45,297 nucleotides of DNA from a virus, in the IMG/VR virus record IMGVR_UViG_3300035211_000019, positions 1 through 45,297 of that record. The stretch is one strand, 5' to 3'. The translations under genes and the position numbers were made by a program. The notes under the pieces were generated by a model. It ran no database searches, was not told the DNA's origin, and saw nothing but the letters and a program-made list of their open reading frames with translations. Positions 9,491 through 27,170 of this stretch are shown here, in pieces (the first letter of the stretch is position 1; every line of letters starts with the position of its first letter).

Positions 9491-10018
9491 TTATCCCCGA
9501 TATAGTATTTTATTTACTTCTTGTGGTTTTAATAACTTAAGTGGATTTCCGCCACTTCTTAATTGCGCATGAGGGTATTCACGAAAGTTCGCCCAATATC
9601 CGGCCCAATAAAGACCAGCTTGCTTAACTGCTTCGCCATACGCGTCCCAATAAGGCTTAGCTTTTAAATAGTTCCATGCTAATTTACCGTTAAGCACAGG
9701 GCAAGCATCAAAAGCCTCTCCGTAATTGTGCCAAGATTCCCCTGGAGCAGCATTAGTAACGTGATCGCCATATTGAGGACCTACTTCTTCAAGTATGCCC
9801 GCTAAAAATGTAAATCCTAGATTAGCCAATGAATCTTGTTTTTGGTTGATTTCTTGACGGGACCTGGACTGTCTCCATAATCTAGCCTGTTCTTCCAGAG
9901 ACCTAAAGGTACAATAAATCAACAAATCAAAATTAGCCGCTTCTTTACAAGCTTGCTGGATTATAGCAGCTTTTTCCCTTAATTCTGGGACTAAATCCTC
10001 TAGTTTTCGTGATGCCAT
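9491..10018 (-). CDS. endolysin, M15-family L,D-endopeptidase
   Basis: In this 175-aa protein SWHNYGEAFDA (residues 95-105) is the SxHxxGxAxD zinc motif of peptidase M15, with His97 and Asp104 as ligands. YPHAQLR (His150) supplies the third ligand. FRSLEEQARLW is the usual upstream motif. These enzymes cut the peptide cross-bridges of peptidoglycan. No signal peptide is seen, so it should depend on the following holin-like gene. A sigmaE-like promoter at 10037-10064 lies 19 nt upstream of the ATG, giving the lysis pair its own control within the replication operon. Confidence 0.88.
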   Translation of the reverse strand: MASRKLEDLVPELREKAAIIQQACKEAANFDLLIYCTFRSLEEQARLWRQSRSRQEINQKQDSLANLGFTFLAGILEEVGPQYGDHVTNAAPGESWHNYGEAFDACPVLNGKLAWNYLKAKPYWDAYGEAVKQAGLYWAGYWANFREYPHAQLRSGGNPLKLLKPQEVNKILYRG

Positions 10019-12477: not shown

Positions 12478-13173
12478 TTAAATGTTGCGACTTGAAAAAC
12501 GTGATAGTAGCTCTTTCTCCTTATCCATCCTGTGGCTTACACGAAGCATGTACAACACAATTGGATGTCCGTGACCGCCGTTATATGCTGCTGCTAAGAT
12601 GGCAGGATCTTCTGTATCCATAGTATCCGCCAACCATCGTAAATGCATACCAGCATACTCGATATTCTGAACTGGATCATTAAGTTGAGCTATAATACTT
12701 TGATATGGTTTCGAGTCTCCAAACAAAGCAAACCACGTCTTAGGACCAACAATACCATCAACTTTCAGGTGTTGATTCTGTTGATATTGACGTACACCTT
12801 TATCAGTCTTTCTACCAAATATGCCATCAATAGGTCCGTCATACAACCCAAGATCGTACAATTGGATCTGAACATCTATTACTTTGTCTGACCTAGACCC
12901 AAAATACAACAGATCTTGCTTAATTGTACACTCAGGGCACGTCATTTTGGCTGTGCTGGGCTTTATCTGGCACACCCCTATCTCACCATGCCTTCCATGA
13001 ACGTTCTTCCAGTTGGATTCTACATAGCACACAGTCTCCAACAACCCTTGCGGTAAGCTATAGTGACTTTCTACAACACGGGCTACATCTACCAGCTCAT
13101 TGTGCTGAACTGGTGTAGCAAATGCCATATTCACAAGCAATACAGATACAATCCCAAATAACCATTTCTTCAT
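12478..13173 (-). CDS. secreted lytic transglycosylase with inserted peptidoglycan-binding domain
   Basis: From ATG 13173 the 231-aa product has a signal peptide (MKKWLFGIVSVLLVNMAFA, cleavage near 19). The first half of an SLT domain follows, with ETVCYVESNW (catalytic Glu near 52) and GEIGVCQIKPSTA. A peptidoglycan-binding type 1 repeat occupies about residues 96-152 (LGLYDGPIDGIFGRKT, VDGIVGPKTW). The second half of the SLT domain, with AILAAAYNGG near 192, completes the fold. The binding domain is thus nested inside the catalytic domain. The enzyme would cleave glycan strands in the periplasm. A sigmaE-like promoter lies 99 nt upstream inside the preceding gene. Confidence 0.85.
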   Translation of the reverse strand: MKKWLFGIVSVLLVNMAFATPVQHNELVDVARVVESHYSLPQGLLETVCYVESNWKNVHGRHGEIGVCQIKPSTAKMTCPECTIKQDLLYFGSRSDKVIDVQIQLYDLGLYDGPIDGIFGRKTDKGVRQYQQNQHLKVDGIVGPKTWFALFGDSKPYQSIIAQLNDPVQNIEYAGMHLRWLADTMDTEDPAILAAAYNGGHGHPIVLYMLRVSHRMDKEKELLSRFSSRNI

Positions 13174-13177
13174 CGTA

Positions 13178-13432
13178 TTAGACCTCTTCCTCATCAAGTA
13201 ACCAGTTATCTTCTAATAACTCTTTAGTGAACTCACTTAATTCCTCATACTCTTTATCATAGATATCCTCGTTAGACAATGGAGAGTCGTGAAAGTTCAA
13301 TGGCTCGAACTTATCAGGTGATACTATTTCACGACCACATTCACCATAACATTCGTGAACTGTTCCATCTTCGTTAATTGCAGCGCTGCATATTAAGCAG
13401 CGGTCTGGTTGTTCGTATTTATTATTACTCAT
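13178..13432 (-). CDS. hypothetical protein with Cys cluster and acidic tail
   Basis: This 84-aa protein has a zinc-type N-terminus (CLICSAAINEDG, then CYGECG) and a very acidic C-terminus (about ten Glu/Asp in the last 25 residues). No family is recognised. It is the first gene after the promoter and hairpin at 13459-13529 and is followed 4 nt later by the lytic transglycosylase gene, so the two form a small unit. Confidence 0.6.
   Translation of the reverse strand: MSNNKYEQPDRCLICSAAINEDGTVHECYGECGREIVSPDKFEPLNFHDSPLSNEDIYDKEYEELSEFTKELLEDNWLLDEEEV
13272..13299 (-). promoter_or_regulatory. predicted sigmaE/ECF-like promoter of lytic transglycosylase
   Basis: On the minus strand TGAACTT, 15 nt, then GTCTAA. 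The flanks (TTGAACTTT and ATTGTCTAA) equal those of the late-operon copy at 27789-27816. It lies inside the 84-aa gene, 99 nt before the transglycosylase ATG. Confidence 0.6.
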
Positions 13433-13529: not shown

Positions 13530-14822
13530 CTACTTGTTTCTTCTACCAGTCCAATCACCAGAAGGTATAAACATTTTTGGAAGTTGACTGTTATTAGCAA
13601 GATCCTTAACGTGTTTCTCGTTAAGTTTATAAGTAATACAACTTGTCATAAGCCACTGTGATGTTCTCGGGCTGCGAATATGGTAATCATTAACTCCTGA
13701 TAATGTAATTCGTACGTAGTAATCCGGATGCCCTTCAAGATGATCTAGATCATCAAAATTTGCTACAGCCCAGAACTCACCATATACAACACACTCTCTA
13801 TATCCTTCATAACTTGTAGATACTTGGCCTGGACCTCGCCCTGTAACTAGCGCAGGGTAAGAACTTGTTAGGTTGATTAGAAATGGAAAATTTCCGTACC
13901 TATTAATCCTGCCCTGTCCTAACAATGTACCACCACACCTAGTTATGACATGATTATTAACTTCGCCAGTCTTCAATGTTCCATACACGAACACAGGAAA
14001 CTTATTGTAAACTTGCAAAAAATGCTCATCTTGTAGCTCGTCTTGCAGGGCATGGATTATAGGAATAGCCAGTGCTCTGAATGTTACGGACTTTGAAAAC
14101 CAAATTTCAGTTCTTCTCAGTTGAGACTCATTTAAAACATCAAACAGATCACTTAAGAATCCGTGAATTCCGTAGTATCTTTGTTGTTCTGAAGTATTTA
14201 ATAACTTAATATAGTCTTTTGGCACAGAATCTGTATCCCTAAAAGTTTCAAGTAAATATTCAACTAATAGCTTGTTTCCGTACCTGCGAGATACAGCTGG
14301 ATTATGTGTTTCATAGACTTTTATATAATTTATAAAGCTTCTCCAGTCTTTAATGTTCTTATTATTATGAAAATTAGTAGTTAGAATCCCTCGAAGCAAT
14401 AGGGTATATAAGGATATTAGGACTCCATTTGTTACCCATTCACTAGATCCTTCTATAAGGTAGTATGATCTATTTCCCCATTCTGTTTTGTATTCAACAC
14501 GTTCTATTCGAGTAGGACTTTTAAACAAATACGTGTCTTCTAACTCGTTTAAATATCCAAGGAATCGTTCAACATTCTTCTCTTGAAGTCCGTTCTTAAG
14601 CGCCACAAGAGCAATTTTAGCAGGAGATATAGTCTTGCCGGCGCATTCTTGGTACTTGTCTCTACATGCACCCACTCCAAAAATGTTATGCAATACACCA
14701 TCGCCGGTTAATCTAAGCATATCAGAGCGTACATCCGACGCACCGTCTGGATAGTCTCCTCTGAAATAACTACTTAAATGCTCTTTTGTTTTCTTATAAT
14801 CAACCTTAGTATTCTCAAACAT
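13530..14822 (-). CDS. protein with C-terminal gamma-glutamylcyclotransferase (AIG2-like) domain
   Basis: Residues about 275-390 of this 430-aa protein form a GGCT-like domain. FVYGTLKTGEVNNHV is the substrate-loop motif, GNFPFLI and YPALV follow, and FDDLDHLEGHPDYYVR holds the expected catalytic Glu. These enzymes release gamma-glutamyl groups as 5-oxoproline. The first 270 residues match nothing known to me and look mainly helical. It is the last gene of a cassette with ATP-grasp, GATase and amidoligase genes, so it may trim or cyclise a gamma-linked product of those enzymes. Confidence 0.75.
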   Translation of the reverse strand: MFENTKVDYKKTKEHLSSYFRGDYPDGASDVRSDMLRLTGDGVLHNIFGVGACRDKYQECAGKTISPAKIALVALKNGLQEKNVERFLGYLNELEDTYLFKSPTRIERVEYKTEWGNRSYYLIEGSSEWVTNGVLISLYTLLLRGILTTNFHNNKNIKDWRSFINYIKVYETHNPAVSRRYGNKLLVEYLLETFRDTDSVPKDYIKLLNTSEQQRYYGIHGFLSDLFDVLNESQLRRTEIWFSKSVTFRALAIPIIHALQDELQDEHFLQVYNKFPVFVYGTLKTGEVNNHVITRCGGTLLGQGRINRYGNFPFLINLTSSYPALVTGRGPGQVSTSYEGYRECVVYGEFWAVANFDDLDHLEGHPDYYVRITLSGVNDYHIRSPRTSQWLMTSCITYKLNEKHVKDLANNSQLPKMFIPSGDWTGRRNK

Positions 14823-14840
14823 AGATATTACTCCTTGTGA

Positions 14841-15647
14841 TTAAACTTCAAAACTTTTAAAATAATCAACATAAGCTGATAATGTTCGTGGATCACTCAT
14901 GCCTGGGGCGGAGTTTACTTCACAAACAACAGCCCTGCGAAGCTGGCCGTGTTTTATAATAGCCATCACATCTACACCAGCAAAATCAAGATCTAAAGCC
15001 TCAGTAGCACTAATAGCTAAATCTTCCAATACATGAGTTCTTAGTATGTTGTTCTTGGAGAATGTCCACCCACGTCCCCTACTACGTATGTGGCGGTCTT
15101 CACGCTCCAATCCCCACTTCCGCAGTGATTCAGCACTACGCTTTTTCTTTTGACGATAGTCGATTATCTCGTGGTAAGCCACATGTATTCTGAACTCATG
15201 AGTTTTTGGAAAACGTTTGGTATACAAAGGTAATCCGTGAGGTACTTGATCCCCGGGATTGATTATGTGTATACCTTGACCTTTTTTACCAGTGGTAGTT
15301 TCACGAGCAAAAACAATGTGACCTTCTCGTAACCACTCCTCAGCAGAGCGATGATCAGTAGTAAACTCTAATGTATCAACACCGTTATCCGTGAGAATAC
15401 GTAACGTGTTAAGTTTGTTTACTGCATTTGCTACATAATTAGGATGATTAAGGAACGCAACTCTAGGCAATTCATCTTCTCTCCACCATACTGGAACTTG
15501 AGACCTACCATAATTAATAATAACAGATTGATCTTGTATAGCAGGTTTAGGACGATGATTGACTGTAACTTCTTGAGCATTGAGGGCTCGTGCTATCTTA
15601 CGACCTATGCCGGGTACACCTTTGCGCGCTCGTAATACATAATACAT
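14841..15647 (-). CDS. RimK-like ATP-grasp ligase
   Basis: This 268-aa protein has the ATP-grasp signature in order: a nucleotide-binding Gly/Lys loop (ETTTGKKGQGIHII near 125), YTKRFPKTHEFRIHV near 155, DLDFAGVDVMAII near 228 and CEVNSAPGM near 248, where Glu and Asn bind magnesium. The family joins a carboxylate to an amine through an acylphosphate and includes RimK, which adds glutamates to a protein. Position between GGCT and GATase genes in one leftward cassette suggests a step in building a peptide or amide-bearing product. Confidence 0.85.
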   Translation of the reverse strand: MYYVLRARKGVPGIGRKIARALNAQEVTVNHRPKPAIQDQSVIINYGRSQVPVWWREDELPRVAFLNHPNYVANAVNKLNTLRILTDNGVDTLEFTTDHRSAEEWLREGHIVFARETTTGKKGQGIHIINPGDQVPHGLPLYTKRFPKTHEFRIHVAYHEIIDYRQKKKRSAESLRKWGLEREDRHIRSRGRGWTFSKNNILRTHVLEDLAISATEALDLDFAGVDVMAIIKHGQLRRAVVCEVNSAPGMSDPRTLSAYVDYFKSFEV

Positions 15648-15659
15648 AATTTTATCCTT

Positions 15660-17087
15660 TTATGGACTTATTAATTGACTAAGACCTGTTTGAAGCATTT
15701 CTTGAACACATTTTCCACATAATAATTCGTCGTTCTCATTAGTCCATCTTGCGTCTCCATCTGGAAGTTTTAGTTGATAGCACGGTATGTCTTTTTGACA
15801 ATAACAACACTTTTCTCCTGCGTCTCTCCATAATTTTTTTGCTTGCTTTCCACTTAATACAACACCGCCCGGCCCTCGCCATCCTGTAGTTTTGGCTGGT
15901 GCTGGTAGTTTAATTACATTACTATTAATTCGTATTGAGTCTACTGACCGGACCTCAATTTCTATATCATATCCTGGAGTTAGACAAAGATGCGAATCAG
16001 TTACACGTCCTTGAAACCACTCATTCTCATTAGCCTTGTGAGACGGAATTCCAGTAGCAACTACTTTAGCTTTAGTATTTACTTTAGGGGAATTATATAC
16101 TCCTTCCAGTCTGACATATACACTAGGTCCGTATGAAGAAACCTTCTCCTTCTTGAACGTAACTAGATCGCCGTACACAAGATCATAGTTCTTTAGTTGG
16201 TTATTGACTCTAACAGGATTTGAATACGAATTATAACCAGTAGAATTATTGGGGCCTGTTAAAGCACTTGAATTATCGTACGTTTGATTTGGTCTGTAAG
16301 TGTGCGAATAGTTTCTATTGCTCGTGTAATTACTTTTGGGCTCCTTATACAGCTCATATTTTAAGCACTTACACCTAATAGCAGGCTTTTCATCATACAC
16401 TTTTATCAATTGACCGGGCCGAACTCGATACAAATCCGTGTCTAACTTCTCGTTTCTTAGCAATGTCAAGCCATTACGTTCAGCAAGTGCACGTATTAAC
16501 CAAGTTTCACTAGCAAATAGGATTGAGTCACCGCCGTGGGCGAATCCATAGAATAATGGACGATCCTCATTACGAGTTAGGTATAAGCACTTCTGAGAAA
16601 TATTATACCACACCAGTGCGTACGAACCTTGTACTGTAGATAAGTACTGCAACAACTCCTTTTCAGTGTTGTGGTGCTTGCTCATTTCATCGTACATGCC
16701 ATCACTATCGACTTCAAAATCATTTGATCGATATTTGTAGTTTAATGTTCCGTTGTGAACTCCTACTACTCTGCCGTGCTTGAATGGATGAGCATTCCTG
16801 TCACTTATGGAGTTGGCTATTGTGGCGTATCTGTTGTGACCAACAACACATTTCCAGTTCTCATTGTTATTTGACCACTTTTCCATTAACTTTAATTGTA
16901 CAAAATCTGGTGCAGCCATAGCTCTTTTGTACAAAAACAACCTATTCTTCTGGTCAATGGAAAATACACCAGTGCCATGTCCGCCGCGTAATGTATCGCA
17001 GAATAAAGCATCACCAAACCACTGTTTCAATTCTTTATTTTGAAGATAAACATTTGACGTGGTTTTGTATCCAACTATACCGCAAAT
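15660..17087 (-). CDS. class II glutamine amidotransferase, ATT start, C-terminal zinc site
   Basis: The N-terminal half is a GATase II (Ntn hydrolase) domain: GHGTGVFSID, VGHNRYAT, NAHPFKHG, GVHNGTLNY, DSDGMYDEM, GSYALVWYN and RNEDRPLFYG are all present. The nucleophilic Cys of this family must be residue 2. Upstream of the first TTG (17030) the frame is open and reads ICGIVGYKTT directly after ATT at 17085-17087, with AGGAGG 8 nt before it; no ATG, GTG or TTG is available there. With ATT as start the 475-aa protein begins Met-Cys-Gly-Ile-Val-Gly. The C-terminus has a four-Cys pattern (CCYCQ, CGKC). It would release ammonia from glutamine, presumably for the partner ligases. Confidence 0.85.
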   Translation of the reverse strand: MCGIVGYKTTSNVYLQNKELKQWFGDALFCDTLRGGHGTGVFSIDQKNRLFLYKRAMAAPDFVQLKLMEKWSNNNENWKCVVGHNRYATIANSISDRNAHPFKHGRVVGVHNGTLNYKYRSNDFEVDSDGMYDEMSKHHNTEKELLQYLSTVQGSYALVWYNISQKCLYLTRNEDRPLFYGFAHGGDSILFASETWLIRALAERNGLTLLRNEKLDTDLYRVRPGQLIKVYDEKPAIRCKCLKYELYKEPKSNYTSNRNYSHTYRPNQTYDNSSALTGPNNSTGYNSYSNPVRVNNQLKNYDLVYGDLVTFKKEKVSSYGPSVYVRLEGVYNSPKVNTKAKVVATGIPSHKANENEWFQGRVTDSHLCLTPGYDIEIEVRSVDSIRINSNVIKLPAPAKTTGWRGPGGVVLSGKQAKKLWRDAGEKCCYCQKDIPCYQLKLPDGDARWTNENDELLCGKCVQEMLQTGLSQLISP

Positions 17088-17095
17088 AGCTAAGT

Positions 17096-17101
17096 CCTCC
17101 T
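17096..17101 (-). promoter_or_regulatory. Shine-Dalgarno AGGAGG deciding the ATT start
   Basis: A full AGGAGG on the minus strand lies 8 nt before ATT 17087, the codon preceding the required nucleophile Cys. An in-frame TAG overlaps the same motif (17100-17102), so translation cannot begin further upstream. The motif position fixes the start at or very near ATT. Confidence 0.75.
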
Positions 17102-17120
17102 ATCAAAGATTAATAAAATG

Positions 17121-18641
17121 TTAATTAGTGCTGTCGTCTTCATCAGATGAAATATTACTTCGAGTAATACCATCATCAGTTGTAGTCCATATAGTGGGGC
17201 GCGGAATTTCAGTCGTCGAAGCCCTAATAAACATATCACCTTCCCTTGTTGGGGATTCATTAGTGATGGACTCTTCTGAATATATTCGGCCCGAGTGTGT
17301 GCCTTGGTGTATTCTATTAGAAGTAGTGCTTCTTGTCGTAGGACTTGGAGCTACTTGAGGTATTTCACCAACCCACCTATCGAACGAAACTTCGTTTATA
17401 ATATCTTCCGCAGTTCGTAATGTATTACCTTCGCTGTCTTGATATATAATCAAACCTTCTTCAATTTCGTGTATTAAACGGGCCTCTATGCGATTAAGTA
17501 AGTTATTCCTATCTTCTATAGACATAGATCGTAATACTTGCTCATGCATACTTAATAATCTACCTTGCTGGGCTCTGGTTAAAAATAGTGATTTCATTAC
17601 TCCTAGTGGAGTAGATAACAAAATACACTCATCCCTATTCAAAGCGCGCACTGCCTGTGGAGATTCTTGATTTGCTACTTTTTTTTTGCGTGAGTGTTTT
17701 TTGCTATACTTAGTAAGCAACGCTTCCTCATCGTTACTGGCGGTACACTTGTCTCTCAATAAATTATTAAAGATTTTATTAAATTCCTTTCCAAACACCA
17801 TATCCATAGCTAATTTTATACCGAGTCTTATTTCATGAAGGACTGACTGGGACGTAACTTCAAAGTACTTATAGTACTCTTGAAATACATCGGTAAGGAA
17901 TGCCCTAATGTTTGAATCATTGACATCAGGAATATTAAATTCTCTTGTACGAAGTACATAACGCTTTAAACAAAGAATTATATTAATCCATCGAAGTATG
18001 GATGCCGAATCCCACGCTCCTTGGTGCATACGAAACTCAATTGAGCCATATGAGAACACTGCTGCAAAATTAATACCAGCATACTTAACAGTATCCTCAT
18101 TTAGATTATATCGAGTAGTTGTCTTACGACCAACTAGAAAATCAGAATATAACGCACCTAGTTCTCGAATTAACCCATCTTTTTTGCGAATTGGTACGCA
18201 GAAATGGTTGTTTCTGCGGTGTTCAGCAACATAGTTATACAGTAATGGCTCTGTTATCAAACATAAGGATATTAGATTTCCTAGCTCTGTTGTTGTTAGA
18301 TCACGTATATCCAAATGAATGTGCAAACTTGTACGCTCTGACATGTGTGGATATTTTGATGTCTTTTTCTCGATAGCATTTGAAAAAATGTTAATTGCTT
18401 TTACTAAATCCTGTCCAAATAAGGGCCACTTTAAGTGCGCCTCGACAGAATTATCACCACGTAAGCTGTGATCCTGTACAAAGGTCCAGTACTCACTAAC
18501 TTCTTTAAGAATTCCTGTGTGATTATCCAGTTGTTCGAGTTCAATCTCAATGCCAACATTGCTGTGCAATACTAATTTATTCGACTCTTTGAAGACGCGC
18601 ACATCTTCGGGTAAACCTAAAAACTTAGCGCTCTTTGTCAT
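17121..18641 (-). CDS. amidoligase-family enzyme (glutamine synthetase-like fold)
   Basis: Several motifs in this 506-aa protein follow the putative amidoligase family: NVGIEIELEQ (residues 28-37), a segment with HSLRGDNSVEAHLKWPL, SLHIHLDIRDLT near 105, and GSIEFRMHQGAWD near 205. These supply the Glu and His metal and ATP ligands of the COOH-NH2 ligase fold. The last 80 residues are Ser/Thr-rich and probably disordered. The family forms amide bonds between a carboxyl group and an amine using ATP. The start abuts the stop of the 18.6-19.3 kb gene. Confidence 0.8.
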   Translation of the reverse strand: MTKSAKFLGLPEDVRVFKESNKLVLHSNVGIEIELEQLDNHTGILKEVSEYWTFVQDHSLRGDNSVEAHLKWPLFGQDLVKAINIFSNAIEKKTSKYPHMSERTSLHIHLDIRDLTTTELGNLISLCLITEPLLYNYVAEHRRNNHFCVPIRKKDGLIRELGALYSDFLVGRKTTTRYNLNEDTVKYAGINFAAVFSYGSIEFRMHQGAWDSASILRWINIILCLKRYVLRTREFNIPDVNDSNIRAFLTDVFQEYYKYFEVTSQSVLHEIRLGIKLAMDMVFGKEFNKIFNNLLRDKCTASNDEEALLTKYSKKHSRKKKVANQESPQAVRALNRDECILLSTPLGVMKSLFLTRAQQGRLLSMHEQVLRSMSIEDRNNLLNRIEARLIHEIEEGLIIYQDSEGNTLRTAEDIINEVSFDRWVGEIPQVAPSPTTRSTTSNRIHQGTHSGRIYSEESITNESPTREGDMFIRASTTEIPRPTIWTTTDDGITRSNISSDEDDSTN

Positions 18642-19303
18642 TACACGTACTCTATTTGTATATCAGTTGGAAGATATGGGTTTAAGTATTCAAGCGACGA
18701 CGGAAATGTTATTACGTGTTCAGTTCCTTTTTTGTGGAGATACCCAACCTCAAGTTCTTTATAATTTAAAATTGGATACTTGTAAAGAGGCGACAACCTA
18801 AAAGCAAACACATCAGAGAAAGCTACACCTTGTACTCTAAGAGAACTTATACTATTAGCTGCTTGTGCAGCTGTAGGATACTCCTTATTGAATAAGTTAA
18901 TGATAAGTTTAGGGCGTAAAGTTGAGCTTATATTTCCAAGATGGTAGTCAATCTCTCGGAACGAAAACGCTTTCTTTACTGTTCGCCGCGGATAAAAAGT
19001 TATATAGGAGCAGTTCCTACCGAGATTAACATAACCCCTATCCGGTAATGTAAAGTCATATAGTGCTTGATTGAACGGAATCCATTTCCTAATTGTATTC
19101 CCTCGATCGCTTATTGGAAAAGTAACCTTGGAGCATTTTACTGTTAAAACTTCGATACCTCTTTCAGAATCACTACTCCGAAAATCATAAAAATAGTAAA
19201 TATCTCCGGTCTTTTTATTACGAGCAAATGTTTCAGAATAAGCTTGTCGTATCTCTCTTAGTACGTTAATAGCGACAGGATTATGAGTTTGTTTAGCAGG
19301 CAT
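18641..19303 (-). CDS. unknown protein of the amidoligase cassette
   Basis: ATG 19303 (220 aa) is preferred because AGGA lies about 10 nt upstream and the overlap with the previous gene is short; the ATG at 19336 would add 11 residues. The protein is mixed alpha/beta and rich in aromatic and basic residues (YYFYDFRSSDSERG, YITFYPRRTVKK, LSPLYKYPILNYKELEVGY). No family is recognised. Because it lies between two amidoligases with overlapping ends, it probably works in the same pathway. Confidence 0.7.
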   Translation of the reverse strand: MPAKQTHNPVAINVLREIRQAYSETFARNKKTGDIYYFYDFRSSDSERGIEVLTVKCSKVTFPISDRGNTIRKWIPFNQALYDFTLPDRGYVNLGRNCSYITFYPRRTVKKAFSFREIDYHLGNISSTLRPKLIINLFNKEYPTAAQAANSISSLRVQGVAFSDVFAFRLSPLYKYPILNYKELEVGYLHKKGTEHVITFPSSLEYLNPYLPTDIQIEYV

Positions 19304-20138
19304 TGGGATATTGTCCTGATAAGAAAGCATCTTCAATATAGTTGGAGTACAGTTCTTTTATTCGTTTTTTGTTGTCCGAATCGATGCTGTTGATTACGGA
19401 AAAATATTGATCTGGCACTCTTGCATCTGGATCTTCCAGCATTTGATTAGTCTTAGCAAGAGCTTGATCGACGTGCCACAACAAGTCCGAAGTAAGATTA
19501 CGCTTGGAGTTTTTAGGCAACCAGAAATTACTTGGAGTTCTGTACTCAAGGCCGTAGCCTGTAAACCTAAATTTTGATGCTTGACCATACAGAGTTCTAC
19601 GAGAATTAGGCGGCTCTATGCTAGCAGAGTACAATCCTGCATACATATCCAAGAACCTAACAAAATAATATCGCCTATCGTGACCTATGTGATCACCAGT
19701 AGCTTGGCTGAGACCAAGATGTAAGTGACCACCGACAGTGCGTAATCCGCCAACAAGAGCTGGGTCTATGCGCTGACACGAGGAGAAAGTTAGAGCACTA
19801 AAATCCTCGCGACATGAAAACTCCATTGCTCCGGGCTTTTTCAGTTGAGTATCAGCGAACTCATGGTCAATCTTGTCTGATAATTTCAAACCAAATTCTT
19901 TTTGTATAAATCGCTCCAGTTCCTTTGTAGAGTTTTCAATTGTTGCTATAAAACCCGTTCGAGACACCTGTGGATTAATATTAAACTCGACAGCTACATT
20001 ATCCGCAAATATCTTACAAGTATTAAGTTCAATAGCTTTTTCTTTTGGTGGTACACCAACATCAAGAGCAGACACAATGCTTCCTTTATTATCTTCAAGG
20101 AAGAACTCTGGGTCTGCTCCATAACTTATTATCCGCAT
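19293..20138 (-). CDS. phiEco32-like COOH-NH2 ligase type 2
   Basis: This 281-aa protein matches the phage ligase family named after phiEco32. SYGADPEFFLED (residues 5-16) is the signature start, DNVAVEFNINPQ near 46 follows, GGHLHLGLSQ near 142 carries the catalytic His, and GLEYRTPSNFWLP near 204 the conserved Glu-Arg. The family belongs to the amidoligase superfamily and is predicted to join carboxylates and amines. It is the first gene of the cassette. A 22-bp palindrome (20153-20174) sits 14 nt before its ATG and is the likely control site. Confidence 0.88.
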   Translation of the reverse strand: MRIISYGADPEFFLEDNKGSIVSALDVGVPPKEKAIELNTCKIFADNVAVEFNINPQVSRTGFIATIENSTKELERFIQKEFGLKLSDKIDHEFADTQLKKPGAMEFSCREDFSALTFSSCQRIDPALVGGLRTVGGHLHLGLSQATGDHIGHDRRYYFVRFLDMYAGLYSASIEPPNSRRTLYGQASKFRFTGYGLEYRTPSNFWLPKNSKRNLTSDLLWHVDQALAKTNQMLEDPDARVPDQYFSVINSIDSDNKKRIKELYSNYIEDAFLSGQYPNAC

Positions 20139-25453: not shown

Positions 25454-25525
25454 TTAAATTCGGTAAGTGCCATCCTGTACGGCGGCATTAGTGCCGTCCT
25501 TATCGGAGGCGTAAACGCCGTCCTT
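25454..25525 (-). repeat. three imperfect 24-bp tandem repeats
   Basis: Units at 25502-25525, 25478-25501 and 25454-25477 each begin (minus strand) with AAGGACGGC or CAGGATGGC. The first two agree at about two thirds of positions. Small hairpins such as GGCGT-AA-ACGCC form inside the units. Confidence 0.6.
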
Positions 25526-25576
25526 GGCAACTAGTCCCCTTTTCTGTATCCGCTTCACGGCCCTCTCTGGCTCCAC
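25454..25576 (-). CDS. possible tiny ORF with 8-residue repeats, 40 aa
   Basis: A GTG-started frame that ends with three 8-residue units (KDGVYASD, KDGTNAAV, QDGTYRI and stop). The repeat length of 24 bp equals eight codons, and the DGT/DGV repeats look protein-like. There is no good ribosome site, so this may be a remnant or the repeats may act as RNA or DNA. It lies in the leader between the sigma70 promoter and the 72-aa gene. Confidence 0.25.
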   Translation of the reverse strand: MEPERAVKRIQKRGLVAKDGVYASDKDGTNAAVQDGTYRI

Positions 25577-25598
25577 GGCGGTAACTTAGAATGAGGTA

Positions 25599-25620
25599 CT
25601 CCGTACTACGTAGTACGGAA
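25599..25620. promoter_or_regulatory. 22-bp palindrome, copy 4
   Basis: The inner 20 bp are a perfect palindrome (core CCGTACTACGTAGTACGG). CTTAG and CTAAG extend the dyad outside. It lies about 75 nt downstream of the predicted start of the promoter at 25698-25726 and 165 nt before the 72-aa gene. Confidence 0.65.
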
Positions 25621-25697
25621 CTAAGTTCCATGTACAGCGTCCTTCTCTCATAATTCAATACACGAAAAGAATCTACACTTCTCCAATCATCCATGCT

Positions 25698-25726
25698 AGT
25701 ATAACATAGCTAATACTAAATAGCAA
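25698..25726 (-). promoter_or_regulatory. predicted sigma70 promoter, leftward
   Basis: On the minus strand TTGCTA, 17 nt, then TATACT. Transcription would start near 25691 and read into the leader with copy 4 of the palindrome and the 24-bp repeats, then the 72-aa gene. It is a likely source of early transcription for the genes to the left. Confidence 0.6.
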
Positions 25727-25751
25727 GCATTTGGATACTGAACAAAGGCAT

Positions 25752-25777
25752 AAAAAAAGGGAGCCGAAAGGCTCCCT
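25752..25777 (-). terminator. intrinsic terminator of the 294-aa gene
   Basis: On the minus strand an 8-bp GC-rich stem (AGGGAGCC with GGCTCCCT) with a four-base loop is followed by TTTTTTT. It lies 13 nt after the stop of the gene at 25791-26675 and isolates it from the promoter at 25698-25726. This is the clearest intrinsic terminator in the window. Confidence 0.88.
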
Positions 25778-25790
25778 AAAGGGGGTTATA

Positions 25791-26675
25791 CTAGTTGCAA
25801 TATTCTTTCAGCAGATCATCCAGCGCCGCCATCATATCCAACTGCTTTTCCGTGTCCGCTTTTTCGTACGTTTTCGAGTACTTCGCAACCGCCGTAACCA
25901 GATCATCATGCACATACATAGATTTAGTATGCGGGTTATCACTCGAATTGCGATTTGCTTCTGCCTGCTTTTCTTGCGTGGCTTCTGACTGCTTTGACAG
26001 GTCAATCGCTTTCTTGGTCCAGTTGACCGCTTCCTTCACTTGATTGAAGGTATTCAGCGGCGATTCAGTGTGATCGATCACTTTGGCCTTTGGATCACTC
26101 GGCTTGCACGGTACGCGCTTTTTAACAAACGGTACAATGTTATTTTCAAGCGCTTGTTTGCAGATCGACTTTGCGTTCTTGTAGGTCTGCGGTAACGGCC
26201 TGTATTGCGCTGCTACGCTTTTCAGCGTGCCAGCCGGTACGCGCCCCCACTTCGCTTGTTCTTCGATCTGGGAGCAAACTGCTCCGAATGAACCTACAGT
26301 CGGGAACTGTTTCGCCAGTGACATAACCATGGCGGAGATTTCCCGAACCTCATTGTTGACTCGATTGATATCCTTTTCGATACCGACCGCATTCTTTATG
26401 AGGTCTGTAACTCCGTAGTCGCGGTGTTCCCACACGGGCGCTGTATCCTTGTCCGTGCTGTCCGATACGTCCACGTCGAATACAAGCCGTATCTTGTTCA
26501 GATTGACGGGGTTGAATACTTCCGGTTCCTTACCGTCAACAGGTACGGGGGCGGGCTCAGCGGGTTGAGGGTTATCGGCCATTAATTCGCCAATTTCCTT
26601 TACCGTGGGATCATCCGCTATCGCGGCTGAATCGTGCGCTTGTGCCTTACGTTGTGTGTTTTTACGTGTTGCCAT
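25791..26675 (-). CDS. unknown abundant-type early protein, 294 aa
   Basis: The protein starts MATRKNTQRKAQAHDSAAIA, has a Pro-rich acidic linker (PQPAEPAPVPVDGKEPE), then helical segments (DLIKNAVGIEKDINRVNNEV, NQVKEAVNWTKKAIDLSKQ). No known domain is seen. It has its own sigma70 promoter (26802-26830) and intrinsic terminator, so it is a single-gene unit, probably strongly expressed early. The gene looks more GC-rich than most minus-strand neighbours, which suggests separate origin. Confidence 0.65.
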   Translation of the reverse strand: MATRKNTQRKAQAHDSAAIADDPTVKEIGELMADNPQPAEPAPVPVDGKEPEVFNPVNLNKIRLVFDVDVSDSTDKDTAPVWEHRDYGVTDLIKNAVGIEKDINRVNNEVREISAMVMSLAKQFPTVGSFGAVCSQIEEQAKWGRVPAGTLKSVAAQYRPLPQTYKNAKSICKQALENNIVPFVKKRVPCKPSDPKAKVIDHTESPLNTFNQVKEAVNWTKKAIDLSKQSEATQEKQAEANRNSSDNPHTKSMYVHDDLVTAVAKYSKTYEKADTEKQLDMMAALDDLLKEYCN

Positions 26676-26719
26676 ATCTATATCCTCATTGTGGTGAGTA
26701 GAATAAACACACGTTACCG

Positions 26720-26741
26720 TTCCGTACTATATAGTACTGAA
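26720..26741. promoter_or_regulatory. 22-bp palindrome, copy 5
   Basis: Core CCGTACTATATAGTACTG flanked by TT and AA; one base breaks the symmetry. It lies in the leader between the sigma70 promoter at 26802-26830 and the ATG at 26675. Confidence 0.65.
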
Positions 26742-26801
26742 CGACCACGTGCTTAGTTGTTAAAGATCGAGGCGCGGGCGTGAATCCCGGCCATGTAAGC
26801 G

Positions 26802-26830
26802 ACTATACGCTTGTCAGTATCCACAGTCAA
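26802..26830 (-). promoter_or_regulatory. strong sigma70 promoter, leftward
   Basis: On the minus strand TTGACT, 17 nt, then TATAGT, close to the consensus and with ideal spacing. RNA would start near 26795, giving a leader of about 120 nt that contains palindrome copy 5. Confidence 0.75.
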
Positions 26831-26868
26831 TGAAATGGATACTGAGTAACGTACAATTAGTGAGGATC

Positions 26869-26890
26869 GCCGCCAGCCGGAGCCGGCGGC
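26869..26890 (-). terminator. GC-rich hairpin after the 90-aa gene
   Basis: GCCGCC pairs with GGCGGC around a 10-nt loop, 7 nt beyond the stop of the gene at 26898-27170. No U tract follows on the minus strand, so it is at best a weak terminator or an mRNA 3'-end protector. Confidence 0.45.
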
Positions 26891-26897
26891 TATAGGA

Positions 26898-27170
26898 CTA
26901 ACGCTTTTCGGGATGGTGTACCACTACTGTATACAAGCACGTAACGCTTGCGAATGCTTCACAGTGTTGCCGTACTTCGATAATTGCCACCTTATCGGCT
27001 GTAGGACCGGAATAGTTACCCAGCTTGATCTGAGTAGCAATGTGCTCCGCTTGCTTCACGGCATGCGTGAACCGTCCGTGTAGCAGGTATTCTTCCGCTT
27101 TCGGTGACGTGTGATTCAGTGGTACTGGTGTACCATCCGCACACAATAGATGTACTCTGTAAAAGTCCAT
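26898..27170 (-). CDS. hypothetical early protein, 90 aa
   Basis: The first gene of the leftward block. MDFYRVHLLCADGTPVPLN opens the protein, then LLHGRFTHAVKQAEHIATQI and a beta-rich end. No family is recognised. GAGGATA precedes the ATG, as for the 294-aa gene. Composition is richer in GC than the genes further left. Palindrome copy 6 lies 51 nt upstream. Confidence 0.6.
   Translation of the reverse strand: MDFYRVHLLCADGTPVPLNHTSPKAEEYLLHGRFTHAVKQAEHIATQIKLGNYSGPTADKVAIIEVRQHCEAFASVTCLYTVVVHHPEKR

Follow-up and report, generated by a model that had tools for sequence, protein, structure and literature searches.

What do six tightly packed phage genes make together, and on which acceptor do they act? 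The question is raised by a locus of the IMG/VR virus record IMGVR_UViG_3300035211_000019, analyzed here over its whole stretch of 45,297 bases (the window), in which six minus-strand genes at positions 13530–20138 are packed as one operon with intergenic gaps of at most 33 bases or short overlaps. In the order of transcription, they encode a phiEco32-type COOH-NH2 ligase (lig2), a protein designated U, an amidoligase (Amidoligase_2), a class II glutamine amidotransferase (GATase), a RimK-like ATP-grasp ligase, and a 430-aa fusion protein with a GGCT domain. The cassette belongs to a known kind, since the set has already been published as a seven-gene "peptidoglycan modification cassette" of phages phiRIO-1, phiEco32, 7-11, PA11, tf, MR299-2, LUZ24, PaP3, and CW02 (PMC5498523); as cited there, Iyer 2009 and Hardies 2013 are credited with the phage cassette, and later papers repeat the peptidoglycan-modification view (PMC11945000, PMC10580990). 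More than 300 phage records, E. coli and Pseudomonas phages among them, contain a relative of the window amidoligase; despite these numbers, the peptidoglycan modification that is commonly given as the function of the cassette has thin evidence behind it. Our analysis suggests, with a probability of roughly 60%, that the six genes form a single phage operon, expressed early and devoted to ATP-dependent amide chemistry.

Conservation of the cassette and its predicted chemistry

The variability of the locus was assessed in 80 viral loci collected with an amidoligase profile and 16 loci from phage records, in which all open reading frames (ORFs) were searched with iterated profiles. Co-occurrence was counted in the 52 loci that have flanks of 6 kb or more on both sides. 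Lig2, the amidoligase, the GATase, and the ATP-grasp ligase were present in all 52, and U in 51; U lay between the two amidoligases in 51/52 loci, and the order lig2–U–amidoligase was nearly invariant. A gamma-glutamyl cleaver, either GGCT or a PuuD-like C26 peptidase, was found in 49 of the 52, the GGCT and C26 counts being limited to the captured flanks, beyond which further copies are possible. The same cassette order recurs in the isolated phages SU10, APT65, LUZ24, UFV-P2, and others. Single-protein scans of viral contigs retrieved only one near-identical contig, and the alignment-based scan retrieved the 80 loci.

Conservation of residues was assessed by aligning each window protein with 50 to 96 members of its family and scoring the columns conserved at 90% or more. 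The window keeps 107 of 114 such columns (lig2 25/28, amidoligase 20/20, GATase 27/28, ATP-grasp 19/21, GGCT 16/17), among them the Cys of the GATase, the Glu/His/Arg set of the amidoligase, and the Glu of GGCT. This conserved Glu/His/Arg set is present in the window Amidoligase_2/COOH-NH2_lig proteins (glutamine synthetase-like, GS-like, ligases), the columns kept in the ATP-grasp ligase comprise conserved ATP/Mg residues, and the catalytic Glu is invariant across the GGCT family (51/51).

The first-pass annotation of this DNA had held that conserved co-occurrence of all six genes would support one pathway and had named two observations that would speak against it: catalytic residues lost on close alignment, and genes scattered and independent in related phages. 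Given the 107 columns kept, residue loss was not seen, nor was scattering in the 52 loci; with the core genes in 51–52 of 52 loci, a single predicted amide-bond pathway is strongly supported. The annotated cassette and its named families likewise stood, given the ORF positions and Pfam bit scores above the curated cut-offs (COOH-NH2_lig 32.2 vs. 25; Amidoligase_2 47.4 vs. 22; GATase_6 44 vs. 27; RimK 23.9 vs. 21; GGACT 42.1 vs. 22.8). In PHROGs, the five named domains match phage families, and U matches two entries without a function label. The features of the locus are as follows:

19293..20138, minus: phiEco32-type COOH-NH2 ligase (lig2), 281 aa; Pfam PF14395 (8.5e-08), PHROG 3815 (7.8e-43)
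18641..19336, minus: protein U, ~231 aa, alpha+beta fold; found in 93/97 loci, always adjoining an amidoligase
17121..18641, minus: Amidoligase_2 (GS-like), 506 aa, long acidic C-terminal extension; Pfam PF12224 (2.9e-12)
17096..17101, minus: Shine–Dalgarno AGGAGG; 8-base spacer to ATT
17085..17087, minus: GATase start codon ATT, directly before TGC (Cys2)
15660..17087, minus: class II glutamine amidotransferase, 475 aa, catalytic Cys2; PHROG 4736 (1.5e-57, residues 1–465)
15708..15809, minus: GATase C-terminal C4 zinc-finger-like motif (CCYC...CGKC); CxxC..CxxC in 67/83 cassette GATases
14841..15647, minus: RimK-like ATP-grasp ligase, 268 aa; Pfam PF08443 (3.5e-05), PHROG 2599 (8e-53)
14013..14822, minus: N-terminal domain of the GGCT fusion (~residues 1–270); no Pfam match
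13548..13994, minus: GGCT/GGACT domain (residues 277–425), YGxL and catalytic Glu kept; Pfam PF06094 (1.5e-10)

At the level of comparative genomics, the six genes behave as one functional unit, and the individual reactions can be predicted from the protein families. The class II GATase would draw ammonia from glutamine. The two GS-like amidoligases and the RimK-like ATP-grasp ligase would activate carboxylates with ATP, the activated carboxylates being linked to ammonia or amino-acid amines, probably using glutamate. The GGCT domain would remove a gamma-glutamyl protecting or handle group, a step that in many other phages may be carried out by a PuuD-like C26 peptidase, alone or besides GGCT. 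U would act as a non-enzymatic partner holding the ligases or the acceptor, and GATase output in the window phage is probably throttled by an AUU start sensitive to initiation factor 3 (IF3). A gamma-glutamyl group that is added with ATP and later removed by a GGCT or C26 enzyme is known from butirosin biosynthesis (BtrG, of the GGCT fold) and from putrescine utilization (PuuA/PuuD); the likeness to the window cassette lies in this gamma-glutamylation–deglutamylation logic only, and the substrates may differ.

The cassette belongs to the early/replication half of its genome, which is that of a tailed phage: a DnaB-like helicase, a DNA polymerase, and an exonuclease follow downstream on the same strand, and the terminase and portal genes lie on the opposite strand. 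Mass spectrometry of a lysate of kuravirus SU10 detected six early proteins, including the ATP-grasp ligase, the GATase, and GGCT (PMC4281155). CDS86 in the SU10 table, at 23.3 kDa, fits U by mass (U 23.3 kDa, amidoligase 42.2 kDa; PMC4281155), so that, with U assigned by mass, four of the six early proteins belong to the cassette. Because the sample was concentrated with polyethylene glycol and not gradient-purified, these data speak for expression and not for a place in the virion.

Several points weigh against the proposed amide-chemistry operon. The loci were collected through the amidoligase, and the co-occurrence is therefore conditional on it. A measured reaction was not found in the literature for any cassette member. 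The expression data are those of SU10. The scaffold role of U is a guess, and it is possible that GGCT and C26 complement each other and are not equivalent.

The GATase start codon

Called from ATG, GTG, or TTG, the GATase ORF starts at 17030 and is devoid of the N-terminal catalytic Cys. Upstream and in frame, AGGAGG (17101–17096) is followed by 8 bases and then by ATT TGC GGT ATA GTT. Initiation at this ATT (17087–17085) gives the N-terminus M-C-G-I-V-G, the class II signature, and the resulting protein has the hallmarks of the class, namely the Cys directly after Met, GHNRYAT, and HNG. Judged from these signals, the true start of the window GATase is the ATT. The first-pass statement that all key motifs are present is correct only from this codon, since the usual TTG start would remove the catalytic Cys.

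Across 83 cassette GATases in which an N-terminal Cys was visible, the codon before it was ATG in 61, ATC in 7, ATT in 5, TTG in 4, GTG in 3, and CTG in 1; one of the two remaining rows has an ATG one codon earlier, and the second is ambiguous. Phages SU10, Bas87, and O18-011 of E. coli start with ATT; in the Pseudomonas phages Ty and O4, the codon is ATC. AUU/AUC starts thus recur across unrelated phages, and a quick GATase tree requires a minimum of 6 to 8 changes of the ATT/ATC state. The Shine–Dalgarno match is longer for ATT/ATC than for ATG starts (p = 0.008, uncorrected for relatedness). IF3 discriminates against AUU and AUC starts, unlike AUG, GUG, and UUG (PMC4611024). We infer that selection has repeatedly favored a weak or regulated synthesis of the GATase.

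Such starts can mislead annotation into omitting the catalytic Cys: the deposited GATase annotations of O18-011, Ty, and O4 begin downstream and lose it. The SU10 proteomics table lists the GATase at 63.8 kDa, which equals a start at Met115, and the deposited ATT-start protein has 76.2 kDa. In our locus numbering, AUU/AUC starts were recorded at L003, L004, L030, L041, L043, L059, L068, L071, L078, L080, L101, L103, and L104.

Protein U, the gamma-glutamyl cleavers, and related cassettes

U stands beside the amidoligase in the great majority of loci, and five different U seeds converged on one family in iterated profiles. It is a universal cassette member, as universal as the enzymes, and hence not a novelty of the window phage; the "new 220-aa member" of the first-pass annotation turned out to be a protein of about 231 aa found in nearly every such cassette. 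The AlphaFold2 model of U has an alpha+beta fold (pLDDT 88.8), and a structure search with it returned viral matches including CW02 gp8 (H9D1D2, E 7.8e-10), which occupies the same cassette position. The structure search against PDB gave no significant match, the best being SH3-barrel proteins such as EF-P (E 0.1, TM ~0.22), and a sequence search for PDB relatives gave nothing significant for U or the amidoligase. The modeled fold bears a weak resemblance to an SH3/KOW-like barrel. For an EF-P-like identity of U, the matches are weak (three U members match Pfam EFP_N at E 0.07 or worse, in addition to the PDB value above).

Conservation in U is highest at Gly, Asn, Arg, Tyr, and Ala residues, and none of these top positions is an acid, Cys, or His of catalytic appearance; as a conserved catalytic set is missing, a binding or scaffold protein is suggested. 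It is conceivable, albeit rather improbable, that U itself is the acceptor or carrier of the amide product of the flanking ligases, with the GATase held down by IF3-responsive AUU/AUC starts. If true, the cassette would be a phage amide assembly line built around an SH3/KOW-like protein.

With few exceptions, the cassette comes with an enzyme that cleaves gamma-glutamyl links and has one of two unrelated folds. When 50 distinct GGCT ORFs were compared, the extra 270 residues in front of the domain were confined to the window lineage, the other ORFs being 115 to 211 residues long. By this comparison, the fusion of GGCT to a 270-residue N-terminal domain is new here and lineage-specific, which agrees with the first-pass suggestion of a distinct version. 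The N-terminal domain matches nothing in Pfam, a search of phage records found no relative of it, and it was recovered in one near-identical contig only.

In other loci, a P family of ~300-aa proteins with invariant Cys and Arg is often encoded upstream of lig2, sometimes in two copies (L001:3574-4503, L003:5607-6575, L002:5670-6515, and others); it has no Pfam match and no PDB fold match. By eye, the fusion N-terminal domain resembles the P family in its motifs (Cys, SP, Arg spacing), a likeness that failed the formal tests and was dropped (hhalign probability <2%, score in the shuffled range; hmmsearch 0.4 bits, E 140). Forty-four loci encode the PuuD-like C26 peptidase, often as the next gene after P (e.g., L004:3854-4477, L059:5797-6426); the family is assigned to Pfam Peptidase_C26, with Cys-His-Glu invariant in 44/44. 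Neither a C26 peptidase gene nor a P gene was found in the window. Mutual exclusion of GGCT and C26 (Fisher p 0.0005) was rejected, as it is not significant on a quick tree, where independent pairs are too few.

Compared with the published phage cassette (phiRIO-1/PSA-HP1, phiEco32, 7-11, LUZ24, PaP3, tf, PA11, CW02), the window shares the enzyme families and their order, but has GGCT as the C-terminal domain of the fusion and an ATT GATase start, with the P-family and C26 genes not found. The SU10 cassette (gp078–gp090) has six genes in common with the window in the same order, also with an ATT start of the GATase. In contrast to the window, it encodes a separate GGCT, two P-type genes upstream, and two small genes between the GATase and the ATP-grasp ligase, and its proteins are longer (GATase 676 aa, ATP-grasp 400 aa). 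By terminase, the closest cassette-bearing isolate is the Alcaligenes phage vB_Af_QDWS535 (43% identity), with the order lig2–U–amidoligase–GATase–ATP-grasp; unlike the window, it has a stand-alone GGCT elsewhere, a C26 gene as well, and an ATG start of the GATase. Contigs binned into bacterial metagenome-assembled genomes (L107–L112) carry the phage-type cassette including U and are probably phage contigs in these bins.

The acceptor and the genomic surroundings

The likeliest single acceptor class is a cell-envelope or peptidoglycan precursor, which we put forward tentatively and in line with the literature. Altered muropeptide precursors would block superinfecting phages or shift lysis timing, as proposed for phiRIO-1-like phages, phiEco32, LUZ24, and others (PMC5498523, PMC11945000, PMC10580990). 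Lysin genes occur near the window cassette (12478–13197; ~9491–10018), and an endolysin is encoded ~3 kb upstream of the cassette in 7-11, Privateer, and A24; such genes, however, are ordinary phage neighbors, the cassette usually adjoins primase/helicase genes and not lysis genes, and neither muropeptide analysis nor direct proof was found in the literature. It is doubtful that proteins are the target, with the RimK-like ATP-grasp ligase attaching an amino acid such as glutamate to proteins of the host or the phage and GGCT/C26 editing the product. The RimK-type match, the S6 glutaminyl transferase PHROG, and the early detection in the SU10 lysate, which fits host takeover, are consistent with this, yet RimK can do without a GATase and without two GS-like ligases, and the operon encodes no target protein. 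Equally doubtful is a role in small-metabolite synthesis or nitrogen salvage, in which the cassette would make or recycle gamma-glutamyl compounds or a diffusible inhibitor. GGCT and PuuD-like C26 enzymes act, by family, on gamma-glutamyl amides, and for Phage-ZRK32, which has cassette genes, a promotion of nitrogen use by the host has been reported (PMC10945688); this growth effect is not tied to the cassette genes, though, and recycling would need neither three ligases nor a dedicated U.

DNA base modification conferring restriction resistance is attractive because the Gordonclarkvirinae, among them the cassette-bearing SU10 and Bas87, withstand restriction-modification remarkably well although no DNA modification pathway is known from them (PMC11990801), and we still regard it as improbable. 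In its favor, the cassette adjoins replication genes, and a cassette-less relative of the window phage, ct2os315, encodes the antirestriction protein ArdC and a C5 cytosine methylase instead, albeit as a single case. The BASEL authors, however, suggest dCTP deaminase and a nucleotidyltransferase instead. Phage tf reportedly has the cassette pathway (PMC5498523), and its DNA was cut by RsaI, HpaI, EcoRV, SmaI, and HaeIII and sequenced directly (PMC3517423), so dense modification is ruled out in tf, though not in kuraviruses, and was rejected as a general function. Our literature search found no restriction digestion of kuravirus DNA; the present findings allow precise and cheap tests in these phages, including whether the cassette explains their puzzling restriction resistance. 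That the genes are chance neighbors or decayed remnants is highly implausible, being contradicted by the near-universal co-occurrence and the kept catalytic residues.

Phage ct2os315 (L114, MW202796) has the window backbone (terminase 48%, capsid 48%, portal 36%) and no cassette gene, which indicates that the cassette comes and goes as a block; its antirestriction and methylase genes lie in the early region. The lysin-type genes mentioned above are located downstream of the window cassette on the same strand and comprise an SLT + PG_binding_1 protein (12478–13197) and a match to an endolysin PHROG (~9491–10018). Window positions 25501–27000 reach a GC content of 0.487 around a 294-aa ORF (25791–26675, no Pfam match), compared with ~0.38 in the surrounding genes. 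Positions 1–456 hold a truncated gene, 66% identical to the ct2os315 ribonucleotide reductase, and the record thus probably ends inside the ribonucleotide reductase gene.

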